Positions 14,355-27,415 of a DNA stretch of 30,292 nt are shown here, in pieces. Position 1 is the first letter of the stretch; each line of letters opens with the position of its first letter. The translations under genes were made by a program, and so were the position numbers. Origin of the DNA: a virus; the IMG/VR virus record IMGVR_UViG_3300046816_000632, positions 1-30,292 of that record; one strand, 5' to 3'. The notes beneath the pieces are model-generated. The model saw only the letters and a list, made by a program, of their open reading frames with translations, made no database searches and was not told the DNA's origin.

Positions 14355-16454
14355 CTAGGCGCCGACGCTGCGGTCGAGGCCGCGGTAGTCGATCGCCTTC
14401 GTGCCGACGTCGAGGACGCACTTGATCTCCATGCCCTCGGACTCGAACGAGAGCTGCGACTCGATCCGCGGGCCCTCGTTCCCCTCGAGGAAGCCCACCT
14501 CGATCGTGTCGATGAAGGTCGGGTCGGCCGAGAGGTACCACGACGTCAGGCCGTTCGTCGCGCCGTCGAGGCGCGGCTGCACGATCACCTCGAGAAGGCC
14601 CATGAAGGGGTTCACGCCGCCAGCGGTGACCGCGTTGATCAGGACGGTGTTCTGCTGCGCGACCGTCTCGAGCGCCGCGGGCACGATCAGGAACCGCGGC
14701 GAGAGGTTCAGGTACTTGCCCTCGATGCTCTTCTGCGCGCGCATACGGGCGCGCGCGGTCGAGAGACCGCCGGTCGAGAGGCTCGAGCCCGGCGAGCCGG
14801 TCCCGTTGTTGTTGTGGCCGGTTCCGCCGAAGAGCGCGAACGTGTCGGCCATGTTCGGGTTGCTCGTCAGGATCGCGTAGACGAGGTCTTCGATCAGGAC
14901 CGAGGCCGAGATGGCGAAGTCCGACGGGATCCGCATGAACGCGGACAGGTCGTCGTTGATCAGCGCCTTGCGCGTGATCATGACGATCTTCCCGTACGTC
15001 TTCAGGGCGTACTTCTCGGCGGCGTCCGTGATCTTCCCGCGGGTGATCTCGCCGTTTTCGGGCACCTCGAGCAGCGACGGAGCGCCGCTCGTCTGGACGC
15101 GCGAGTTCGTCTTGAAGTCGGGCACGCTCGCCTTGCGGCACCAGGGCCGCCAGGTGTTCGGCATCGACTGGTACTGGTCGCGCAGCGTCTTGTTGACGGT
15201 GCCGGCGAGCAGCTCGGGGAAGTCCGAGGACGAGAGCATCGCGCGCTCGACGAGGTCGCTCTTCGAGAGGCCCTTCCAGTTCTTGCCCTGGCGCTCGACG
15301 AAGTGGCGGCAGAGGTCGAGGAGCGAGTAGCTCCGGAAGAAGCGCGCCTGGTCGGTGAGCTTGTCCTCCTTGACGAGGTGCGGGAGCGAGCGGTGGATCA
15401 GGGCCGTCTGGATCGCCTCGTCCTCGCCCGCGCGCTGGGTCTCGGTCACGCGCGTCGCGACGGGCTGCTCCGCCACCTCGGGCGTCGAGCCCGGGTAGAG
15501 CTCGGCGACCTTCAGGCGCGCCTCGTCGTACGTGCGCGTGCTCTGGATCACGCCCGCGATCGCGGCTTCGGAGAGGCCGAAGCGCTTCCCGAACTTCTGC
15601 ACGTCGAGGACGCGCTTCTGCTCGGCGGCGCGGACCTGGTCGTCGTCGGCGGCCGGACGCTCGAGCGTCGCAACGCGGGTCGCCTCCGCGCTCGCGGGAG
15701 CCTGGGTTCCGTCGCCGGCGGGAGCGCCGTCGGTGCGGACTTCGGTCGTGGCGGGAGCGTCGGGCTTCTGCTCGTTCTTTTTCATGGTTCGCGTTCCGTC
15801 CTTGTTGTCGGCGAGCTCCACGAGCTCGCAGCGGTTCTTCTTCTGTTCGTCGCCGCGCGTGCGCACGTAGGCCTCGGACTCCGCGGGGCAGGCGGTGATC
15901 GAGACTTCCGTGATCTCCCAGTCGGTCGCCCGCATTACGGGCGGCGCGCCAGCCGTGCGCTCAACGACCTCCATCTTGTAGACGCGGTAGCCGGCCGAGC
16001 ACTGAGCGAGAACGCCGCTCGCGACGTCCTTGCGGTAGCCGGCGAGCTCCTCGCGGTCGGAGAGTTGGAAGCGCGCGACGACGGCCTTTTCGCCGGTCGA
16101 GAGTTGCTCGACTCGCGCGGTGCCCGGAATCACGACGCCGCGCACGTTCTTCGACGCGAAGCGCGACGGCCCGTACGCGCCGTCCACGTAGCCGTGGTTG
16201 TCGAGCAGGTTGAGTCGGCCCGAAGCGAGGCGCCCCATGCGCAGTTCGCCGTCGTCGAGGCCGAGTTCTTCGTAGTAGGGACCGTCCCAGCCGTCGCGTA
16301 GCACGCGCTCGCCGGTCGTGAGTTGCAGGTCGACCTGCAGAGTCTTCGGGTCGAAGCTCGCGCTCCGGCACAAGGCGCGGCCGACCTGCGGCTCGAGTTC
16401 GACTTGGCGGCTGCTCACGCCCCGGAAGTTGCCCCGCGCGCCCGGGTCGTTCAA
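14355..16454 (-). CDS. Fused prohead protease / major capsid protein
   Basis: This 699-residue protein is read from TTG at 16454; a GTG at 16418 is an alternative start. Residues 20-200 are an HK97-type prohead protease. Candidate catalytic residues are H87 in LLDNHGYVDG, S153 in LAQCSAGYRV and E183 in WEITEVSITACP. Residues 205-345 are charged and low in hydrophobicity, like the scaffolding delta region. Residues from about 350 are an HK97-fold capsid with NKTLRDQYQSMPNTWRPWCR, FLIVPAALETVAQQN and IDTIEVGFLEGNEGPRIESQ. Such fusions are known in Mu-like and lambda-like prophages. An in-frame ATG at 15785 (MKKNEQKPD) sits at the domain border and could give a separate scaffold/capsid product. 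Confidence 0.92.
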   Translation of the reverse strand: MNDPGARGNFRGVSSRQVELEPQVGRALCRSASFDPKTLQVDLQLTTGERVLRDGWDGPYYEELGLDDGELRMGRLASGRLNLLDNHGYVDGAYGPSRFASKNVRGVVIPGTARVEQLSTGEKAVVARFQLSDREELAGYRKDVASGVLAQCSAGYRVYKMEVVERTAGAPPVMRATDWEITEVSITACPAESEAYVRTRGDEQKKNRCELVELADNKDGTRTMKKNEQKPDAPATTEVRTDGAPAGDGTQAPASAEATRVATLERPAADDDQVRAAEQKRVLDVQKFGKRFGLSEAAIAGVIQSTRTYDEARLKVAELYPGSTPEVAEQPVATRVTETQRAGEDEAIQTALIHRSLPHLVKEDKLTDQARFFRSYSLLDLCRHFVERQGKNWKGLSKSDLVERAMLSSSDFPELLAGTVNKTLRDQYQSMPNTWRPWCRKASVPDFKTNSRVQTSGAPSLLEVPENGEITRGKITDAAEKYALKTYGKIVMITRKALINDDLSAFMRIPSDFAISASVLIEDLVYAILTSNPNMADTFALFGGTGHNNNGTGSPGSSLSTGGLSTARARMRAQKSIEGKYLNLSPRFLIVPAALETVAQQNTVLINAVTAGGVNPFMGLLEVIVQPRLDGATNGLTSWYLSADPTFIDTIEVGFLEGNEGPRIESQLSFESEGMEIKCVLDVGTKAIDYRGLDRSVGA

Positions 16455-16455
16455 G

Positions 16456-16472
16456 GGGTAGGAAACCTACCC
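16456..16472. promoter_or_regulatory. 17-base perfect dyad at portal/capsid junction
   Basis: GGGTAGGAAACCTACCC is a perfect dyad with 7-base arms around AAA. It covers the portal stop codon and ends one base before the proposed capsid TTG start. Its core AGGAAACCT is the same as that of the 11-base dyads in the regulatory regions. As RNA it can also form a hairpin that hides the start region. Confidence 0.5.
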
Positions 16473-17981
16473 GCCGGCCGGCGCGGCTTCGGACTGGGTT
16501 CCCTCGCCTCCGGCGGGAGTCCCCGTGCGCAGCGGGACTCGCGGGTCGCTCTCGACCTTCAGGCCGAGCGCGTCGAGCTTCTCGAAGTCGCTCGCGAGCT
16601 CGGCGAAGACCTGGTCGGGGTCGAGGCCGTCCTCGCGCAGGACCTCGGAGAGCGAGCACTGACCGGCGCGCACGGCGTCGCGGCGCGCGGGAACCTCGGT
16701 CTTCGGGTCGAGCATCGCGCGGCGCGGCGGCGTCCAGGTCACGGCGATCGGCTCGTCCATCGGGATGCGCCCGGCGAGGACGGCGGCCTCCGCGACCCAC
16801 TGGACGAGCGGGTTGAGGAGTTGGGTGACGAGGACGTGCTCCCTGAACCGGTCGACGGTGCGGGAGTTCTGCAGGAACCCCATGCGCGCGCTCGAGTAGT
16901 TGACCCCTGACCAGTCGCCCGAGAGCGCCTCGTAGGTGACGTGGGCGCCGGCCGCGACGCCGCGGAGGATCGAGCGCACGTAGGCCTCGTACCCCTCGAC
17001 TGACGGAGGCGTGGAGAACTCGACCGTCTTCCCGCTGGGCAGGTTCACGATCGCGCCGGGCTCAAGCGCGTCGAGCGGCTGCGAGGGCTTGTCCCCGTTC
17101 GGGTTCGGCGGCGGCATTTCCTCCCCGTCGGCGATGTCCGTCACGAAGGCCGTGAGGCAGGCGGAAATCTTCTGCTTCAGGAGTTGCGCGTCCTCGTACT
17201 CGTCGCCGTCGCGCAGCTTGATCAGGACCGAAGCGAGCGCGGGCACGCCGCGAAGCTGCTTCGGGCGCTTCACCCGGTAGGCGTGGAGCACCTCGCTCGC
17301 AGGCACGAGCTTCGAGGGGAGGTAGGGCACGTTGCCCTCGCCCGGGTGGTTCGGCAGGAGCCAGTACCCCTCGCGGCGCCCGAGCGGGTCGAGTTGGATC
17401 GCGTAGCGGATGCGACCGCCGTTCGCGAGGAGCCAGAAGTCGCGTACCGGGTCGAGGTGGTCGGGCTCGAGCGTCTCGACCTGGAACTGCAGCGGGAGCC
17501 CGTCGGACGGAAGCCGCTTGCGCCGGCGCCAGAGAACCTCGCCCGACTCGATCGTCGTGCGCGTGGCGAGCGCCTGAAGGCCGTAGACGTCGAGCCGGCC
17601 GTCGGCGTCGATTGCCGTCGTCTCGCAGTGCTCCTTCCAGACCTGCTGCATGGCGGCGGCGACGCTCGCGCGCTGCGCCGTGAACCGCGGCACGATCCCG
17701 GGGCCGACGATTTCCGACTCGTAGAGCTCGACGACGTGGTCGGCCCACGGGTTGTTGCGGCAGAGGTCGCGCGAGCGGTCGCGCAACTTCGCGATGCTGC
17801 CCTGCATCGAAGTGTTCGCGCTCGTGCTCGGCGCGCGCCACCCGGCCGTGCGCCGCGACTGCGCCGCACCCTCGTAGTGGCGCAGCACGGTCTCGACCGC
17901 CGCGCGCGCGCGCATCCGCGAGAACTGGGCGCGCGGCGAGAAGATCCCGACCAGGTTGTCGAGCGAGCGGCCGAGGTCCAA
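16467..17981 (-). CDS. Portal protein (lambda gpB family)
   Basis: This 504-residue protein starts with TTG at 17981, immediately after the gpW-like gene stop. Hallmarks are RDRSRDLCRNNPWADHVVEL followed by VGPGIVPRF at 65-100, VETLEPDHLD near 168-177, YRVKRPKQLRGVPALA near 235-250, and YEALSGDWSGVNYSSARMG at 350-368, the best signature of lambda-type portals. The portal is the dodecameric ring through which DNA enters and leaves. The C-terminal 60 residues are acidic and proline-rich. Confidence 0.95.
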   Translation of the reverse strand: MDLGRSLDNLVGIFSPRAQFSRMRARAAVETVLRHYEGAAQSRRTAGWRAPSTSANTSMQGSIAKLRDRSRDLCRNNPWADHVVELYESEIVGPGIVPRFTAQRASVAAAMQQVWKEHCETTAIDADGRLDVYGLQALATRTTIESGEVLWRRRKRLPSDGLPLQFQVETLEPDHLDPVRDFWLLANGGRIRYAIQLDPLGRREGYWLLPNHPGEGNVPYLPSKLVPASEVLHAYRVKRPKQLRGVPALASVLIKLRDGDEYEDAQLLKQKISACLTAFVTDIADGEEMPPPNPNGDKPSQPLDALEPGAIVNLPSGKTVEFSTPPSVEGYEAYVRSILRGVAAGAHVTYEALSGDWSGVNYSSARMGFLQNSRTVDRFREHVLVTQLLNPLVQWVAEAAVLAGRIPMDEPIAVTWTPPRRAMLDPKTEVPARRDAVRAGQCSLSEVLREDGLDPDQVFAELASDFEKLDALGLKVESDPRVPLRTGTPAGGEGTQSEAAPAGG

Positions 17982-21826: not shown

Positions 21827-22420
21827 TCAGGGCGCGACGGCCGGCGCGGCCTCGTTCGCGGAGATGTTCGTGATCACGGGGTCCGGCGTGAGCACGCGCG
21901 CGGCCGGCTGCGGTTGCGCGTCGGGGACGGTGTCCTGGGCGGAGACGTCCGACGCGGGAACCGAGAGCGTCGGCTCGGGCGCGCTCGGCTGCTCCTCGGC
22001 AGTCGCGGGTGCCGGGATCTGCAGTCCGGCCCCGAGCACGGTCTCGACGATTCCGGGAAGCTGCGCGAGGTCCCCGGGTCCGCCGGCGAACTTCCCGCCG
22101 ACGGCGACCGCCTTCGAGCGCGTGCGCTGGAGGCCGTCGCGCTGCGCAGCGGGCATTTCCTCGACCCAGCGGCGCACCTCGAGCGCGTGCTTCTCGCCGC
22201 GCGCGGCGAACGGATTGAGCGCGAGCGCTCCGGCCCAGTTGCCTCCGCCGTGCACGCCGTTCGCGACGGGGTTCTCGGGTCCGAGCGCCAGTCCAGCTTC
22301 GCGGAGTGCCAGCGCGATCGAAGGCAAGTCGTCCGCCTCGACGGCGACGCGCACGCGGTAGCGGCGCGGAGGAGGGGGGAGAAACTGCACGGTCTGGGGT
22401 CCGTTCGCTGCGTCGGGCAT
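21827..22420 (-). CDS. Hypothetical first gene of the structural operon
   Basis: This 197-residue protein starts with ATG at 22420, with a strong ribosome binding site (GAGGAAAC) that is also part of an 11-base dyad. Residues 1-110 have VQFLPPPPRRYRVRVAVEAD, GGGNWAGALALNPFAARGEK and LQRTRSKAVAVGGKFAGGPG. The last 70 residues are rich in proline, alanine and glutamine. I do not recognise it. Being first after the regulatory region, it is the best reporter of that promoter. Confidence 0.65.
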   Translation of the reverse strand: MPDAANGPQTVQFLPPPPRRYRVRVAVEADDLPSIALALREAGLALGPENPVANGVHGGGNWAGALALNPFAARGEKHALEVRRWVEEMPAAQRDGLQRTRSKAVAVGGKFAGGPGDLAQLPGIVETVLGAGLQIPAPATAEEQPSAPEPTLSVPASDVSAQDTVPDAQPQPAARVLTPDPVITNISANEAAPAVAP

Positions 22421-22422
22421 CG

Positions 22423-22433
22423 GAGGTTTCCTC
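22423..22433. promoter_or_regulatory. 11-base dyad GAGGTTTCCTC at structural operon RBS
   Basis: This perfect dyad has 4-base arms around TTT. It overlaps the ribosome binding site of the first structural-operon gene. The same 11-mer is found at 22593-22603 and, in reverse orientation, at 27394-27404. Confidence 0.6.
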
Positions 22434-22438
22434 TGTTA

Positions 22439-22479
22439 GGGTTGCCAGAGTTCTACCCTCCTGGCAACCCGGTTGCCAG
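22439..22479. promoter_or_regulatory. Operator-like inverted repeats of GGTTGCCAG
   Basis: GGGTTGCCAG (22439-22448) is repeated inverted as CTGGCAACCC (22461-22470), and GGTTGCCAG follows at 22471-22479. The last two form a perfect 19-base palindrome around a central C. This is a typical multi-site repressor or activator operator just upstream of the structural operon. A degenerate copy (AGTTGCCAC) lies at 22698-22706. Confidence 0.72.
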
Positions 22480-22592
22480 CCTGGGGGCGGAGGTTTATCG
22501 GGGTCCGCGTCACCCGTCTCTCGGGGTGGTCAGGAAGGACCCATACCCCCCCAGGGGGGCCCCAGGAGGCCTGCGCTGGAGGGTCTGACGTC

Positions 22593-22603
22593 GAGGTTTC
22601 CTC
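22593..22603. promoter_or_regulatory. 11-base dyad GAGGTTTCCTC, mid-region copy
   Basis: This is an exact second copy of the 11-base dyad, in the middle of the divergent control region and 170 bases from the first copy. No gene overlaps it. Confidence 0.6.
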
Positions 22604-22632
22604 CGTCTCTCGCAGGAAAAATCGCGGGCGCG

Positions 22633-22650
22633 CCTCCGGCGCGCCGGAGG
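22633..22650. repeat. 18-base perfect palindrome
   Basis: CCTCCGGCGCGCCGGAGG is fully self-complementary and lies between the second dyad and the regulator promoter. It has no T-run, so it is not a terminator. It may be a protein site or simply a product of high GC content. Confidence 0.45.
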
Positions 22651-22738
22651 CCGCCCCCCGCGGAGTGCCCAAGCGCGAAGCCCGCGCTCGAGCGAGCAGT
22701 TGCCACGTTCACGTTCCCTCGCGCGCGGCCGCCGGCGC

Positions 22739-22767
22739 TCGACGAGCGCTGCGCGCCGGGCTATGGT
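22739..22767 (+). promoter_or_regulatory. Candidate leaderless promoter of the XRE gene
   Basis: TCGACG (22739-22744, four of six bases of the -35 consensus) and TATGGT (22762-22767, four of six of the -10 consensus) are spaced 17 bases apart. Only six bases separate the -10 from the ATG, so transcription should start at the start codon itself. No ribosome binding site precedes the ATG, which agrees. Confidence 0.6.
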
Positions 22768-22773
22768 TACCTC

Positions 22774-23064
22774 ATGAACGACGCCAGCGACGAGAACTCG
22801 AAGGACAAGGGAGGTCGACCCAGGAACCCCGCGATCAAGGGCGAGGTCTTGCTGGCCGCGCGCCGCGCGCTGCGGTTGTCGCGCGCGAAGGTCGTGAAGG
22901 GCATGGCCGAGCTCGGCTATCCGGTCTCGATCGACACGCTGCACTCCTGGGAGACCGGGCAGTACAGACCGCCCGCGTCGCGGCTCGCCGCAGTGTGCGC
23001 CGTCCTGAAGCTCAAGGCGGAAGACGTGCTCGTCGGAAGTGCAGCGAGCCAATCCGCCGCGTGA
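22774..23064 (+). CDS. XRE-type helix-turn-helix regulator
   Basis: This 96-residue protein is the only plus-strand gene I support. Residues 10-20 are lysine/glycine/arginine-rich (DKGGRPRNP). Residues 24-86 form a helix-turn-helix domain of the lambda-repressor type, with LLAARRALRLSRAKVVKGMA, the recognition region PVSIDTLHSWETGQYRPPAS and a final helix LAAVCAVLKLKAEDVLV. There is no C-terminal cleavage or dimerisation domain, so it is a Cro-sized regulator. It faces away from the structural operon and probably controls the region between. The start at 22774 is chosen for domain fit and the promoter spacing. Confidence 0.85.
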   Translation: MNDASDENSKDKGGRPRNPAIKGEVLLAARRALRLSRAKVVKGMAELGYPVSIDTLHSWETGQYRPPASRLAAVCAVLKLKAEDVLVGSAASQSAA

Positions 23065-23078
23065 TCTCCGCGAGAGAA

Positions 23079-23094
23079 CCGGTCTGCAGACCGG
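23079..23094. repeat. 16-base palindrome before the terminator
   Basis: CCGGTCTGCAGACCGG is a perfect palindrome between the XRE stop codon and the terminator hairpin. It could be an operator or add a second stem to the terminator. Nothing else supports a role. Confidence 0.4.
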
Positions 23095-23095
23095 C

Positions 23096-23137
23096 GTGGC
23101 TCGCTCTGCGGTTGTGCGCCGAGCGAGCCACTTTTCT
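23096..23137 (+). terminator. Intrinsic terminator of the XRE gene
   Basis: GTGGCTCGCT (23096-23105) pairs perfectly with AGCGAGCCAC (23122-23131) across a 16-base loop, followed by TTTTCT. It ends the plus-strand transcript; its T-run overlaps the stop codon of the converging minus-strand gene. On the minus strand there is no T-run after the stem. Confidence 0.85.
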
Positions 23138-23777
23138 ACCTGCGCACGCTGCGCGGCTGCAGCGCTTGGTAGAGCGCCTGCCTGAAGGTGACGCCCCACG
23201 CCGCTGCGACGACCTTTTCGACCGTTGGTCTGAACCCGAAGCGCGGCTGCAGGTGCGCGCTGCGACGGAAGAGGTAGAGCACCTGCAGCGGGTATCGGTC
23301 TTTCCCAGAACGACGAAGGATCGCGACGGAGCCTGCGCTCTGGCCGCGCACGAGGGTCTGCTTGAAGATGCCGCGGCGGTCCAGCGCGCGCCGCGGGCGC
23401 AGCGCCAGCGGGATCTTTCCTCCGGCTCCGACGCGCACCGTATCGCTCGGCAGCGCGAGGTCGCGACCCGTCTTCGGCGTCTTCGTTCCTCCGGTCTCCT
23501 GCAACTCGAGGAACTGGTCGCGCGCACCGACGACTGCGAACGGGTTGGGGTAGTCGCTCTTGTTCGCGGGCACGGCCTGTATCCCGCGCGAGAGCCACGT
23601 CGAGCGGATCTTGAAGTGCGACGGAAGATCGGAGCGCACCTGGTCGCGCGCGAGAACCGCGAGCCGCGAGAGCGCCTTCGCCGTCGCGAACGGAACCTGC
23701 TTTCCGACGGCGAACGAAACCCACTCGTCGAAGTCTCGAGTGTCGACCTGGACCTTGATTGTCTCGCCTCCGTTCAC
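23136..23777 (-). CDS. Putative tail completion / HK97 gp10-like virion protein
   Basis: This 213-residue protein overlaps the upstream gene by 4 bases. The pattern is that of small neck/tail completion proteins: KQVPFATAKALSRLAVLARD, LPSHFKIRSTWLSRGIQAVP, VVGARDQFLELQETGGTKTP and PLALRPRRAL, then YLFRRSAHLQPRFGFRPTVE near the end. Such proteins usually lie beside the connector and terminator genes. Here it is the last gene of the accessory operon, on the far side of the regulator. Family assignment is by pattern and moderately sure. Confidence 0.68.
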   Translation of the reverse strand: MNGGETIKVQVDTRDFDEWVSFAVGKQVPFATAKALSRLAVLARDQVRSDLPSHFKIRSTWLSRGIQAVPANKSDYPNPFAVVGARDQFLELQETGGTKTPKTGRDLALPSDTVRVGAGGKIPLALRPRRALDRRGIFKQTLVRGQSAGSVAILRRSGKDRYPLQVLYLFRRSAHLQPRFGFRPTVEKVVAAAWGVTFRQALYQALQPRSVRR

Positions 23778-24031
23778 GGGATCACTCTATCGGAGACGCG
23801 GACGCAGTGCCGCGCCGGGTTCTTCAGACAGATCCAGGGCGCGTAGGGGTCGGCCAGTGTCCTCTTCTCGCCGCAGGCCTCGCACTTCAGGTAGAGCCGG
23901 AAAGGGTGCCCTGGCGGTTCGGAGTGCGCCGTCTCGAGCGGAGGAGAAGAAGGCGGCCTTCGATTCGGGTGCGACTGCGCCAGCCCGAGCTTGAGGTGGT
24001 CGAACGCCTCGCTCGCGGGACGCGCGCTCAC
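23774..24031 (-). CDS. Small putative zinc-binding protein
   Basis: This 85-residue protein has a C-terminal half containing LKCEACGEKRTLADPYAPWI then CLKNPARHCVRV. Four cysteines with a CxxC pair suggest a zinc ribbon. The N-terminal half is proline-rich and probably disordered. It overlaps both neighbours by 4 bases. No function is recognised. Confidence 0.62.
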   Translation of the reverse strand: MSARPASEAFDHLKLGLAQSHPNRRPPSSPPLETAHSEPPGHPFRLYLKCEACGEKRTLADPYAPWICLKNPARHCVRVSDRVIP

Positions 24032-24333
24032 GAAGGCCGCTTCGCCAGCTTTTCACGGTCAGCGATGCGGGCCTGGGCTTCTCGCAGATATCGCCGATTG
24101 AACCGAGCCGTTCTGCGCCTCGTGAAGCGCGCGGTGCCGTAGTAGGCACCGTCGAATCCGAGCAGGTGTCCGACCGCGATCGCGTGCCAAGCACCTATCC
24201 ACCAATGCCACGTCCAGAAGAACTGCCGCACGCGGCGCTTCTCGATCGCGTGCCTGAGAGCGATACGGAAAGCGTAGGTCAGCGCCCAGAGTTGCGCGCT
24301 GCGCCACGCGAGGTACGTCGGTTCCTTGCTCAT
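24028..24333 (-). CDS. Hypothetical tryptophan-rich basic protein
   Basis: This 101-residue protein starts with ATG at 24333, overlapping the upstream stop as ATGA. It has LAWRSAQLWALTYAFRIALR, FFWTWHWWIGAWHAIAVGHL and GAYYGTARFTRRRTARF, then a basic helical end. The tryptophan-rich hydrophobic middle may sit at or in the membrane. I do not recognise a family. Confidence 0.6.
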   Translation of the reverse strand: MSKEPTYLAWRSAQLWALTYAFRIALRHAIEKRRVRQFFWTWHWWIGAWHAIAVGHLLGFDGAYYGTARFTRRRTARFNRRYLREAQARIADREKLAKRPS

Positions 24334-24578
24334 GAATCGGATTCCAGAATGCGCAGCGCCTCGCGCGCGCGTGCTGCGTCGTTCGTGATCGCTCCTTCGC
24401 AGTGCCCGCGTTCCATCCGGTTGAGCACTCCGCCGAGCCAGCGCCAGAATCCGTTGTGCTCGTTCGGGTGACGCAGCGCGAGGCCGCACCTCGCCGAAAT
24501 CGTCAGGCCCGAGTCGCGCCAAAGCAGCGCCTCGCCGAGTTGGTCGAGGTAGAGCAGGATCTTCAGGACGTAGCTCAC
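24330..24578 (-). CDS. Conserved small phage protein (LDQLGEALLW type)
   Basis: This 82-residue protein starts with GTG at 24578 with a GTGA overlap. It begins VSYVLKILLYLDQLGEALLW, then LTISARCGLALR, GFWRWLGGVLNRMERGHCEG. The order of a hydrophobic start, an LxALLxG-like segment, an R/C patch and a final GHC motif is known from small phage proteins of unknown function near lysis genes. A 40-base segment is 90 percent identical to part of the gene at 26818. Confidence 0.65.
   Translation of the reverse strand: MSYVLKILLYLDQLGEALLWRDSGLTISARCGLALRHPNEHNGFWRWLGGVLNRMERGHCEGAITNDAARAREALRILESDS
24519..24558 (-). repeat. 40-base repeat, copy 1 (partner at 26908-26947)
   Basis: I count 36 of 40 bases identical to 26908-26947. 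Both copies encode LDQLGEALLW in the same reading frame. Confidence 0.75.
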
Positions 24579-24733
24579 GACTCGGCCTCCGACTTGATCT
24601 GCTCGAGCTTCTCGAGCGTGTAGGGCTTTTCGCTGCTCCCGATCTTGCCCAGCGTCACGACGTCCTTCACGACCGCGACTGGGAGCGTGGCGACGTTGAT
24701 TGTAGTTCGGACGATCGCTGCAAAGAGGCTCAT
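24575..24733 (-). CDS. Small conserved phage protein
   Basis: This gene has 52 codons, starting with ATG at 24733, which overlaps the upstream stop as ATGA; its own TGA overlaps the next GTG. It reads MSLFAAIVRTTINVATLPVA, VVKDVVTLGKIGSSEKPYTL, then an acidic helix. This amphipathic start with a VATLPVAVVKDV-like core is common in short phage proteins of unknown role. Confidence 0.7.
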   Translation of the reverse strand: MSLFAAIVRTTINVATLPVAVVKDVVTLGKIGSSEKPYTLEKLEQIKSEAES

Positions 24734-24954
24734 TCGAGTTCCTTAGCCATTTTTCGCAAGCACTGGAACATATTGTGAGTTGCCTGTTGAGAATCTCCGC
24801 AGTCGTCGAGCGTGGCATGGAGCTCGCATTCAATCTCCAGCGCTGCCTCGTTCAGAACCGCAATGCAGGCCCACTCGAATACCCAGGGAACGTACAACCC
24901 TTGTACGCCTACGAACTGGGCTTTTCGCTGCTGCATCCGCTCGCGAAAGCTCAC
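24730..24954 (-). CDS. Small protein, paralogue of its upstream neighbour
   Basis: This 74-residue protein starts MSFRERMQQRKAQF, has NEAALEIECELHATLDDC in the middle and ends QCLRKMAKELE. Start, AALEI core and end match the next gene upstream (MSFLEKMQDRMRSF, AALEI, LRRLAKEIE), so the pair came from a tandem duplication. Both are coupled by 4-base overlaps. The function is unknown. Its DNA looks more AT-rich than the rest of the window. Confidence 0.65.
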   Translation of the reverse strand: MSFRERMQQRKAQFVGVQGLYVPWVFEWACIAVLNEAALEIECELHATLDDCGDSQQATHNMFQCLRKMAKELE

Positions 24955-25193
24955 TCGATTTCCTTCGCTAGGCGGCGCAATTCCCGCGCCTCTCGAGTTC
25001 GTGTCGCGCGAGCCGGCCCTTCGTCGTAACAGAGGTCTTTCGCCCGGTTGGTCATTTCGGCTGCGGCAATCTCTAGCGCGGCGCGGGCTCCGAAGAGAAT
25101 CGCGCGGTGCTGTTCCGGAGTGATCGCGTCGGCGAGGTTCTCCTGCCTGCCGAAGGAGCGCATCCGATCCTGCATCTTCTCGAGGAAACTCAT
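24951..25193 (-). CDS. Small protein, paralogue of its downstream neighbour
   Basis: This 80-residue protein starts with ATG at 25193 with an ATGA overlap. It reads MSFLEKMQDRMRSFGRQENL, AITPEQHRAILFGARAALEI, then an arginine-rich helix ending LRRLAKEIE. It is mostly helical and shares start, middle and end with the gene downstream. The function is unknown. Confidence 0.65.
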   Translation of the reverse strand: MSFLEKMQDRMRSFGRQENLADAITPEQHRAILFGARAALEIAAAEMTNRAKDLCYDEGPARATRTREARELRRLAKEIE

Positions 25194-25375
25194 CGGTTGC
25201 GCCTCCGCGCGTCCTTCGACTCTCGACGCCGCGCGCGCCGTTGCTTGTCGCACTTTGCGCAGCACGTCCTGCGCGCTCGGGACAGAAATCCGGGGTCGTC
25301 GTCGCGTCCCTTGCGCGGCGGCTGCGAGAGCGCTGCCAGCGCGTAGACGACGGCCAAGTTATTCGCCCCCTTCAC
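25190..25375 (-). CDS. Small basic cysteine-containing protein
   Basis: This gene has 61 codons, starting with GTG at 25375 with a GTGA overlap. It begins VKGANNLAVVYALAALSQPP and continues with the basic SRARRTCCAKCDKQRRARRR. Three cysteines (CCxxC) and many arginines would suit nucleic-acid or metal binding. The C-terminus is almost all arginine, lysine and acidic residues. No family is recognised. Confidence 0.5.
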   Translation of the reverse strand: MKGANNLAVVYALAALSQPPRKGRDDDPGFLSRARRTCCAKCDKQRRARRRESKDARRRNR

Positions 25376-25800
25376 GCGAACCACGCTCGCATGAAGCGCA
25401 AGGCGCCGACGACTCCGATTGCGACTCCCACTCCGGCTGCCGAACCTAGGACGACGATTCCGCCAGCGACGAGGGTGGTGTCCCACAACTGCCGCGCTTC
25501 GCGCACGATCCAGACTCGAGCGACGTCGAGCGGGAACGTCTGCGGCTCCTCCTGACGGACGCGCACGATCTCGCCCGGTTGATTGCGAGCGCGGCCATCC
25601 TGCTCCAACTGAGCGACGCGCTGGAATAGGCCGCTCACTCTCTGGTCGTTTTCGATGTACCGCTGGCTCTCGAGCCCGACGCGGGAGAGCGCCCTCGATT
25701 CAAACGCGACTAGGTGCCTCCGCAACTCCGACACGTTTTCGCATTCTGCGAAGCTCGCCCGATCTGCGGTCCCTTCCGCGCTCGACACGTCAGCCGGCAT
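25372..25800 (-). CDS. Coiled-coil protein with C-terminal membrane helix
   Basis: This 142-residue protein has helical heptad-like stretches at residues 24-65 (SELRRHLVAFESRALSRVGL and following), a polar middle, and a strong membrane helix at 110-134 (VAGGIVVLGSAAGVGVAIGV). The layout of coiled coil plus C-terminal anchor resembles XhlA-like lysis accessory proteins and some superinfection-exclusion proteins. It overlaps the upstream gene by 11 bases. The exact role is not known. Confidence 0.62.
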   Translation of the reverse strand: MPADVSSAEGTADRASFAECENVSELRRHLVAFESRALSRVGLESQRYIENDQRVSGLFQRVAQLEQDGRARNQPGEIVRVRQEEPQTFPLDVARVWIVREARQLWDTTLVAGGIVVLGSAAGVGVAIGVVGALRFMRAWFA

Positions 25801-26047
25801 TCCCGCCCTCTTCCTTGACCGGCGTTCCCGCGGAGTGCCCGTGTTCCGGCACGAAGTACACGAACTCGACTCCAGGAGTCGCGGCTGCGGCCGCGTGCGC
25901 GGCGGCCGCTGTCTTCTTCGCCGTGTTGGGCTTCAGCCCGTCGTTCCTGTCGTCTCCACCGATCGCTCGAACGAAGATCGTCTTGCCGACGAGCGGCGTA
26001 CCCGGCGTAAAAGTCCCGTCGTCGTGCCTCAGTTCTCGCGCGCCCAT
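25790..26047 (-). CDS. Short protein with beta-helix entry motif (copy A)
   Basis: This 85-residue protein starts with ATG at 26047, with a perfect AGGAGG 6 bases upstream. A GTG at 26104 that overlaps the upstream stop is the alternative and would add 19 residues. The core is FVRAIGGDDRNDGLKPNTAK followed by KTAAAAHAAAA and VYFVPEHG. This is the opening motif of right-handed beta-helix proteins (G-x-D-xx-DG-xx-P-xx-A-x-x-T). The rungs that should follow are missing, so only the cap is present. It aligns with the next gene upstream. Confidence 0.68.
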   Translation of the reverse strand: MGARELRHDDGTFTPGTPLVGKTIFVRAIGGDDRNDGLKPNTAKKTAAAAHAAAAATPGVEFVYFVPEHGHSAGTPVKEEGGNAG

Positions 26048-26100
26048 TTCGTTCCTCCTCTTCGGTTGTTGGTTGGGTTCGTGAAGGTCCGTTCGAGCGT

Positions 26101-26442
26101 TCACCTAGTCGCGTCGCCGTCGAGGGGTCGCGTCATAGGGGCTGGATCGAAAGCGCCGCATCCGTCCACGAATGGAACTCCAGTCGGAACAATGATCAGC
26201 CTGCACGCTGGGCTGTCGCGGAGCAACTCTGCCGCTGCTGCGAGCGTGCGCTTCGCGCGATAGGGTCTCGATCCGTCGAATTCGTCGCTTCCGTTGACGT
26301 TGTCGACGAAGACCGTTCCTGGCGGGACGGGTCCGAGGTTCGAGGCGAACGCGCGCGCGCGTTGTGCAGCGTCGAGCTCTCGCCGCAAGGCCGAATCCTT
26401 CGGGTGCGGAACGTGCTCGACGTCGTAGTCGCGCCAGTCCAC
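26101..26442 (-). CDS. Short protein with beta-helix entry motif (copy B)
   Basis: This 113-residue protein starts with GTG at 26442, one base after the preceding stop codon. After a helical, charged N-terminal part (residues 1-40) it has VFVDNVNGSDEFDGSRPYRA, then KRTLAAAAELL and LIIVPTGVPFVDG. This is the same beta-helix opening motif as in the gene downstream. No further rungs follow. It could be a remnant of a spike protein or a stand-alone fold; the data do not decide. Confidence 0.68.
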   Translation of the reverse strand: MDWRDYDVEHVPHPKDSALRRELDAAQRARAFASNLGPVPPGTVFVDNVNGSDEFDGSRPYRAKRTLAAAAELLRDSPACRLIIVPTGVPFVDGCGAFDPAPMTRPLDGDATR

Positions 26443-26443
26443 G

Positions 26444-26821
26444 TCACACTCCCGCGAGCGCTGCGGGCCGCGTACCCGCGTTCGTGACCGTGGGGTCGGG
26501 CCGGAGCACCAACTCCGGCGCCGAGGCGTTGGGTGCGACCCAGAGGTCTTCGACGCGCCCGCGGGTGTGCTCGCTCGGCCCGACGAGCTCGACCTGCGCG
26601 CGCCACTGGCCCCACTCGTCGAGGTCGAGCGCCTGCGTCGCGTACGAGACCGTGCTCGAAGCCGGGTCCACTGCCGCCGTGTAGCGCGCGCGGCGTCCGC
26701 TCGGCGACTCGAGGAGCAGGAACGCTGACGTGATCCCCGTGAGGTCGCGGGGCGCGCCGGCTTGGTCGAGCACCTTGTAGGCGAGGCTGAAACCGACGTC
26801 GAACTGCTGGCACTGTTTCAT
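26444..26821 (-). CDS. BppU N-terminal-like appendage protein
   Basis: This 125-residue protein starts with ATG at 26821 with GGGAGA upstream and an ATGA overlap. It reads FDVGFSLAYKVLDQAGAPRD, LTGITSAFLLLESPSGRRAR, SSTVSYATQALDLDEWGQW and a last strand WRAQVELVG. This pattern (D-x-G, dLTG, PSG, W-x-x-x-V) is that of the BppU N-terminal domain and similar immunoglobulin-like folds in phage baseplate and fibre genes. Its place inside an otherwise early operon is unusual. Confidence 0.66.
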   Translation of the reverse strand: MKQCQQFDVGFSLAYKVLDQAGAPRDLTGITSAFLLLESPSGRRARYTAAVDPASSTVSYATQALDLDEWGQWRAQVELVGPSEHTRGRVEDLWVAPNASAPELVLRPDPTVTNAGTRPAALAGV

Positions 26822-27108
26822 TGGATTTCTCCCAGGTGAAAGTTGCGCATCGCTTCCTCGTTTTCGACTTCCACGACGGCGACGGCGACGAGCAGGGGGG
26901 GATTGTTCCAGAGCAGCGCTTCGCCGAGTTGATCGAGGGAGAGCAGGGTCGGGGTCGCGGTGCCCGAGTTGTCTTTCTTGAGGAGTTCCTCGCCTTGGAT
27001 CGCGAGCAGGAACGAGCGCACGGACTCCACGTAAGCCCGCGCTGTTTGCTCGGACTCCTGGAACGACTCGGGAACCTCGAAGGTGGCCCGCACGTGCAGA
27101 ACCTTCAC
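26818..27108 (-). CDS. Hypothetical protein with LDQLGEALLW segment
   Basis: This 96-residue protein overlaps both neighbours by 4 bases. It begins MKVLHVRATFEVPESFQESE, with a helix RAYVESVRSFLLAIQGEELL, then LLSLDQLGEALLWNNPPLLV and a final strand VAVAVVEVENEE. The LDQLGEALLW stretch and its DNA match the gene at 24330. The alternating strand-helix layout suggests a small ferredoxin-like fold. The function is unknown. Confidence 0.62.
   Translation of the reverse strand: MKVLHVRATFEVPESFQESEQTARAYVESVRSFLLAIQGEELLKKDNSGTATPTLLSLDQLGEALLWNNPPLLVAVAVVEVENEEAMRNFHLGEIQ
26908..26947 (-). repeat. 40-base repeat, copy 2 (partner at 24519-24558)
   Basis: This copy differs from 24519-24558 at four of 40 positions and encodes the same ten residues LDQLGEALLW. 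Confidence 0.75.
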
Positions 27109-27380
27109 GACGCGCCGCCTTGCATCGCGCGCGCCTCGCGGCGCGCTCCCTCGAGGTCGAGCGCTACTGCCTCGCGCAGCGTCCAGTCCTCCGGACTCCC
27201 AACGAGCAGCCGGCCGCGCACGTAGGTCGCGAAGTCGACCCCGAGTGCCTTCGCCGCCCGCTCGAGCAGCGCGAGGTCCGACGGCCTGACGCGCACGTGC
27301 AGAACTGCGGTTCGAGCCTTGCCTTCAGGCAGCGGACGCGGGCCGGGTTTCTGTCTCACGGTTGAGGAGGTAACTTCCAC
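27105..27380 (-). CDS. Ribbon-helix-helix regulator (Arc/CopG-like)
   Basis: This 91-residue protein starts with GTG at 27380; a GTG at 27359 is a shorter option. After a basic proline-rich arm (QKPGPRPLPEGKAR) comes a strand TAVLHVRV at 24-31, helix SDLALLERAAKALG at 34-47 and helix DFATYVRGRLLV at 49-60. This is the order of ribbon-helix-helix DNA-binding proteins that act as dimers on short palindromes. It is the first gene of the accessory operon and two dyads lie at its own promoter, so self-control is likely. It may control the structural operon too, where the same dyad occurs. Confidence 0.78.
   Translation of the reverse strand: MEVTSSTVRQKPGPRPLPEGKARTAVLHVRVRPSDLALLERAAKALGVDFATYVRGRLLVGSPEDWTLREAVALDLEGARREARAMQGGAS
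27366..27378. promoter_or_regulatory. Imperfect second dyad at the RHH start codon
   Basis: GGAGGTAACTTCC has four of five arm pairs matching. It begins inside the GTG start codon and lies 27 bases centre-to-centre from the perfect dyad. Two such sites would let two dimers bind together. Confidence 0.5.
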
Positions 27381-27386
27381 GGCCGC

Positions 27387-27415
27387 AGACTAGGAGGAAA
27401 CCTCCGGCCCGTCAA
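27387..27415 (-). promoter_or_regulatory. Candidate leaderless promoter of the accessory operon
   Basis: On the minus strand TTGACG (27415-27410, five of six of the consensus) and TAGTCT (27392-27387) are exactly 17 bases apart. The -10 ends six bases before the GTG start, so the mRNA would start at or next to the start codon. The spacer contains the perfect dyad GGAGGTTTCCTCC. The -35 overlaps the stop codon of the preceding 480-residue gene. Confidence 0.72.
27393..27405. promoter_or_regulatory. 13-base perfect dyad inside the promoter spacer
   Basis: GGAGGAAACCTCC has 5-base arms around AAA and contains the same 11-mer (reverse orientation) as 22423-22433 and 22593-22603. Being wholly inside the -35/-10 spacer, a bound protein would block RNA polymerase. 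Confidence 0.72.

Follow-up and report, generated by a model that had tools for sequence, protein, structure and literature searches.

The virus record IMGVR_UViG_3300046816_000632 (30,292 nt, analysed over its full length and called the window below), a 30.3-kb stretch of a GC-rich myovirus, that is, a contractile-tailed phage, carries four copies of a short word (sites A to D, Table 1) that share the consensus GRGGTTTCCTCY and the core AGGTTTCCT and are symmetric except for an AAA/TTT centre. Our favoured reading, to which we give a probability of about 0.5, is that one dimeric regulator encoded by the phage uses the four sites as operator dyads in double-stranded DNA. As judged from the sequence, they likely form a small, lineage-specific set of phage operator dyads.

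Table 1. The four sites and the features surrounding them in the window
Feature	Position	Strand	Remarks
Site A	22422-22434	+	GGAGGTTTCCTCT; ends 1-2 nt before the ATG (22420) of the first late-operon gene
Site B	22592-22604	+	CGAGGTTTCCTCC; control region, between the minus-strand terminator-like hairpin and site A
Site C	16456-16472	-	GGGTAGGTTTCCTACCC; 17-bp perfect dyad GGGTAGG-TTT-CCTACCC, core 16460-16468
Site D	27393-27405	-	GGAGGTTTCCTCC; in the 31-nt gap upstream of the RHH-like gene, 13 nt before its GTG
Ribbon-helix-helix (RHH)-like small protein (NikA/MobC/Arc-type), candidate binder	27105-27380	-	PF21983, structural model, Foldseek
Cro/C1-type helix-turn-helix (HTH) protein, candidate repressor	22774-23064	+	PF13560, structural model
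Separate dyad	22461-22479		CTGGCAACC-C-GGTTGCCAG; 19 bp; third half-site copy at 22440-22448
Intrinsic-terminator-like hairpin	22617-22645	-	would end leftward transcription just before site B
First late-operon gene	21827-22420	-	family not recognised; homologue 55% identical in L002
Portal protein gene, upstream of site C	16467-17981	-	phrog_21, E 3e-94
Head maturation protease/major head protein gene, downstream of site C	14355-16454	-	phrog_4523, E 4e-172

The original prediction held that an exact 11-mer, GAGGTTTCCTC, marks three control points, that it should be met well under once by chance, and that its copies lie in non-coding control sites. All three copies are present where it had placed them (plus strand, 22423-22433 and 22593-22603; minus strand, 27394-27404), with no others in the 30292-nt window, against an expectation of ~0.034 copies on both strands under a second-order Markov model. 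They are confined to non-coding DNA, and counting the matches in the window gave no equally good copies inside genes. The recurrence at late-operon control points or gene junctions and before the RHH-like gene is thereby borne out, but the stronger fourth copy at 16456-16472 (site C) had been missed. An imperfect copy proposed at 27366-27378 fared badly: its score of 12.9 bits is level with that of chance matches in genes (14.1, 13.0, and 12.6), and its sequence reaches into the beginning of the 27105-27380 reading frame. We therefore do not count it as a fourth site. The scores come from a matrix built from the four sites and run over the window, which gives the sites themselves 20.0-21.3 bits and the best other match 14.1 bits, a gap of ~6 bits.

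There are exactly four copies of the nine-base core (AGGTTTCCT/AGGAAACCT) in the window versus ~0.14 expected, which is ~30 times over expectation, and all four cores lie in non-coding DNA, except for two bases of site C that fall in the portal stop codon. By a simple gene call, non-coding DNA makes up 1399 of the 30292 bases (4.6%), and AGGAAACCT is the sole 9-mer with at least four copies all touching it. Neither the mismatch scan nor the matrix scan of the window found further degenerate copies above chance. A loose form of the dyad, GAGGNNNCCTC, matches only at the three places of the 11-mer. Since neither loose dyads (3 seen versus 1.9 expected) nor copies of GAGGTTTCCTC with two mismatches (11 seen versus 11.06 expected) are enriched, the signal is the specific word with its AAA/TTT centre and not a class of loose dyads. 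In the literature, the eight matches listed, of 46 for the 11-mer, were all to unrelated human or animal studies.

The geometry of the sites bears on the level at which they might act. The orientation relative to the gene is mixed, with AAA on the mRNA strand at A and TTT at C and D, and the outer bases differ in step so that symmetry is kept (GGAGG/CCTCC at D, GTAGG/CCTAC at C). Both features suit a DNA dyad read by a dimer. Another explanation, which we regard as unlikely, is an RNA-level start-site element, in which the dyad would be a short hairpin of the mRNA leader over the Shine-Dalgarno region that tunes translation and, at C, couples translation of the portal and the head protease. 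Sites A and C do end 2-4 nt before a start codon, the GAGG of A is a well-spaced Shine-Dalgarno sequence, and C, which covers the 12-nt portal/head-protease junction and overlaps the portal stop codon, forms in the predicted fold a 7-bp stem capped by UUU and adjoining the start, and is unchanged in relatives. However, the loop would read AAA at A and UUU at C and D, B lies ~170 nt from any start, D at its distance of 13 nt prefers another fold, the fold energies of the four sites are no better than those of shuffles (z from -1.3 to +0.2), and the stem at A is lost in the relative L002 while GGAAACCTCCG is kept. No Rfam match to a known structured RNA was found. Mixed orientation, together with the lack of support for RNA hairpins, makes binding at the DNA level more probable than a signal for translation.

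The near relatives are three viral contigs (L001-L003), 82-84% identical to the window over the shared DNA. Site C is identical in all three and sits inside a 31-nt unchanged run, and the 12-nt gap at C is 100% conserved versus 68-83% for most other gaps compared. Site A is reached by L002 alone, where GGAAACCTCCG-ATG is kept and the left arm is changed (AGAGG to CCTGG). The relatives thus keep site C whole and, in L002, only half of site A. The word GGTTTCC has four copies in L002, none of them coding: one at site C, one at site A, and one in each arm of the control-region dyad. In the distant relatives L004, L013, L015, L025-L027, L031, and L046, no dyad of at least six base pairs was found at the portal/head junction, and the short dyads at the L040 portal/head junction are unrelated. 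No pair of sites 145-175 bases apart was found in viral contigs. A search of GTDB genomes for a prophage by way of the terminase returned distant ones only (43% and 33%), and a search of phage records with the control-region DNA returned only a 31-37-base coding stretch.

Several observations weigh against the operator reading. The 31-nt run at C is only the 19th longest of 1704 conserved runs, and as L001-L003 may be one phage population, the conservation of site C counts as one comparison. One arm of A is gone in L002, so the full dyad is not essential there. No relatives covering sites B or D were found, nor any significant relatives of either candidate regulator. The scan for sigma-70-like promoters gave no promoter-like match near A, B, or D. 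An isolated dyad of 11-13 bp would accommodate one RHH dimer, whereas many RHH repressors occupy paired, neighbouring sites. Finally, 300 control sequences were made by shuffling the codons inside genes and resampling the non-coding DNA. Of these, 3% contained some 9-mer with at least four all-non-coding copies, and the excess of the core is thus moderately strong once every 9-mer is allowed for; 0.3% of the same controls matched the window's five 9-mers with at least three such copies.

The 3% of controls, together with the chance-level counts of loose dyads and two-mismatch copies given above and the fact that there are four copies only, also speak for the sites having no common function, an account that we likewise consider improbable. 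A would then be a Shine-Dalgarno sequence that happens to be symmetric, C a hairpin at the gene junction, B the product of a local duplication within the control region (A and B are alike in 13 of 14 bases), and D a chance occurrence. It is countered by the conserved AAA/TTT centre, which lies outside the Shine-Dalgarno sequence, by the excess of a specific word that is absent from genes, and by the wholly non-coding distribution of GGTTTCC in L002.

If the sites are operators, a dimer would read the two arms of each dyad. At A, and perhaps at B, the regulator could govern how the late operon is entered from the control region, and at C and D, which lie inside strings of co-directional genes, it could act as a local roadblock or at a secondary promoter/operator. 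The simplest binder would be the RHH-like protein, whose gene lies right behind D and which might in this way regulate itself. The location of that gene is as the original prediction described it; its identity is only probable. The protein matches PF21983 (NikA-like) with an E-value of 1.4e-4 and 22.4 bits, below the cut-off of 27, and its single-sequence model has helices at residues 33-46, 50-57, and 66-88, as in RHH proteins, with the strand not formed in the monomer model. NikA, KacA, Arc, AtaR, and VapB12 are prominent near the top of the Foldseek list, with weak E-values. By these matches and this model, the protein is probably, if weakly, of the ribbon-helix-helix kind. Searches of viral contigs, of phages, and of the genomes that contain the loci found no relatives of it, and a comparison with plasmids gave two insignificant matches only (E 0.7). 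The further claim that site D is the promoter of an accessory operon was not upheld, as the site lies in a short gap between two co-directional minus-strand genes and has no promoter-like match.

The second of the two small predicted DNA-binding proteins encoded beside the sites is the HTH protein, which matches PF13560 (HTH_31) with an E-value of 2.6e-5 and 24.9 bits, just below the cut-off of 27. Its model has five helices with a core predicted local distance difference test (pLDDT) score of ~95 and shows the HTH fold of Cro/C1-type repressors; no relatives were found in viral contigs or phages. As binder of A to D, we tentatively put the RHH-like protein first; some other protein, such as a regulator encoded outside the contig, is a possible candidate, and the HTH protein another, less likely one. 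Lying beside A and B, the HTH protein is nevertheless ranked nearly as likely a binder as the RHH-like protein.

The control region holds a dyad of its own, CTGGCAACCCGGTTGCCAG (22461-22479), a word distinct from A to D and likely an operator of the adjacent HTH protein. In L002 it reads GTGGAAACC-C-GGTTTCCAG, with both arms changed together (C to A and G to T), much as an operator would change to keep up with its protein, or as a stem would. One could suppose that the HTH repressor owns all the sites through a half-site GGTTKCC, with its top affinity at 22461-22479 and weaker binding at A to D. We think this version, which overlaps with the DNA-operator reading, quite unlikely. In its favour, site A of L002 carries the same CTGGAAACC as the dyad arms, 7 of the 14 GGTTTCC and GGTTGCC words in the window are non-coding, and the HTH gene adjoins A and B. 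On the other hand, GGTTGCC occurs five times inside genes, and the control-region words are GGCAACC as opposed to GGAAACC at A to D with their own symmetric flanks; given these different words and flanks, the control-region dyad and A to D look like two classes.

Among known systems, the closest in apparent working are the stoperators of cluster A mycobacteriophages (L5, TipsytheTRex), which are 13-mers without symmetry, present more than 20 times and oriented with transcription, are bound by a two-domain monomeric repressor, and have been proposed to stop initiation or elongation when the repressor is bound (PMC9283540). The sites described here resemble them as short words scattered through a phage in promoter regions and in the narrow gaps between genes. 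They differ in being symmetric dyads of mixed orientation, with only small single-domain regulators seen and with four copies in 30.3 kb, none of them degenerate, in a genome that is probably incomplete. In placement, the sites are reminiscent of the start-associated sequences (SAS/ESAS) of cluster K mycobacteriophages, asymmetric GGGATAGGAGCCC words present in 11-19 copies, 3-7 bp before starts, almost all pointing the same way and located in the non-structural half of the genome, whose function is unproven (PMC3203893). Both are short repeated words right before start codons that in places contain the upstream stop codon, whereas the present word is different, symmetric, and found in four copies, in both orientations and among structural genes, at distances of 2, 4, 13, and ~170 nt. 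By analogy, the arrangement may work somewhat like stoperators and looks somewhat like SAS. As it lacks the defining features of either in symmetry, orientation, copy number, and word, its sequence suggests a new set of operator-like dyads of a known general kind with candidate binders.

Autoregulation by RHH proteins of the NikA/MobC/Arc kind offers a parallel for site D, as MobC of plasmid RA3 acts on an imperfect palindrome to repress its own promoter (PMC4175270). A small RHH-like protein, the candidate binder, is likewise encoded just behind a palindrome here, but its Pfam match is below the cut-off, D has no promoter-like match, and extra copies lie among the capsid genes. The control region also recalls classical phage repressor operators, with an HTH gene divergent from the operon and a dyad plus repeated half-sites in between; the clear HTH-type dyad, however, is the control-region one and not the word of A to D. 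A more specific form of the operator reading, which we hold to be improbable, is a symmetric stoperator-like system in which one small phage protein acts at a few dyads (the late-operon start, the portal/capsid junction, and before its own gene) as a direction-independent roadblock that would set the ratio of capsid to other late products. If one protein reads all four dyads, capsid expression and a regulator gene would be linked in a compact regulon of an uncharacterised GC-rich myovirus, and the mycobacteriophage stoperators would have a symmetric counterpart; otherwise, the sites would be ordinary operator or leader sequences.

The minus-strand genes of the window encode terminase, portal, head protease, sheath, tape measure, baseplate, and fibre, and the terminase is at best ~50% identical to those of Rhodobacter and Wolbachia phages. 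No replication, integration, or lysis genes were recognised among the proteins scanned, and the contig is for this reason probably incomplete. The gene downstream of site C (14355-16454) apparently fuses the protease and the major head protein in 699 amino acids; its start may be a TTG immediately behind site C or a GTG ~12 codons further on. A candidate sigma-54 promoter was rejected: CTGGCAACCCGGTTGCC has GG-N10-GC spacing, but the GC is lost in L002 (TTTCC), and the match is put down to a side effect of the dyad. Upstream of the late operon, GGTGACGCGGACCCCGAYAAACCTCCG (22488-22514) is almost unchanged in L002 while the surrounding DNA diverges, and may be a promoter or binding element. In the window, AAACCTCCG is non-coding in all three of its copies. 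A string of small, weakly coding-like overlapping genes of unrecognised families occupies 23774-27108 on the minus strand; one of them may encode a zinc ribbon (23774-24031) and another a membrane protein (25372-25800). Between its second late gene and the terminase region, L002 has a 315-amino-acid gene (965-1912) that weakly matches a radical SAM mobile-pair family, and at the corresponding place the window carries different small genes.

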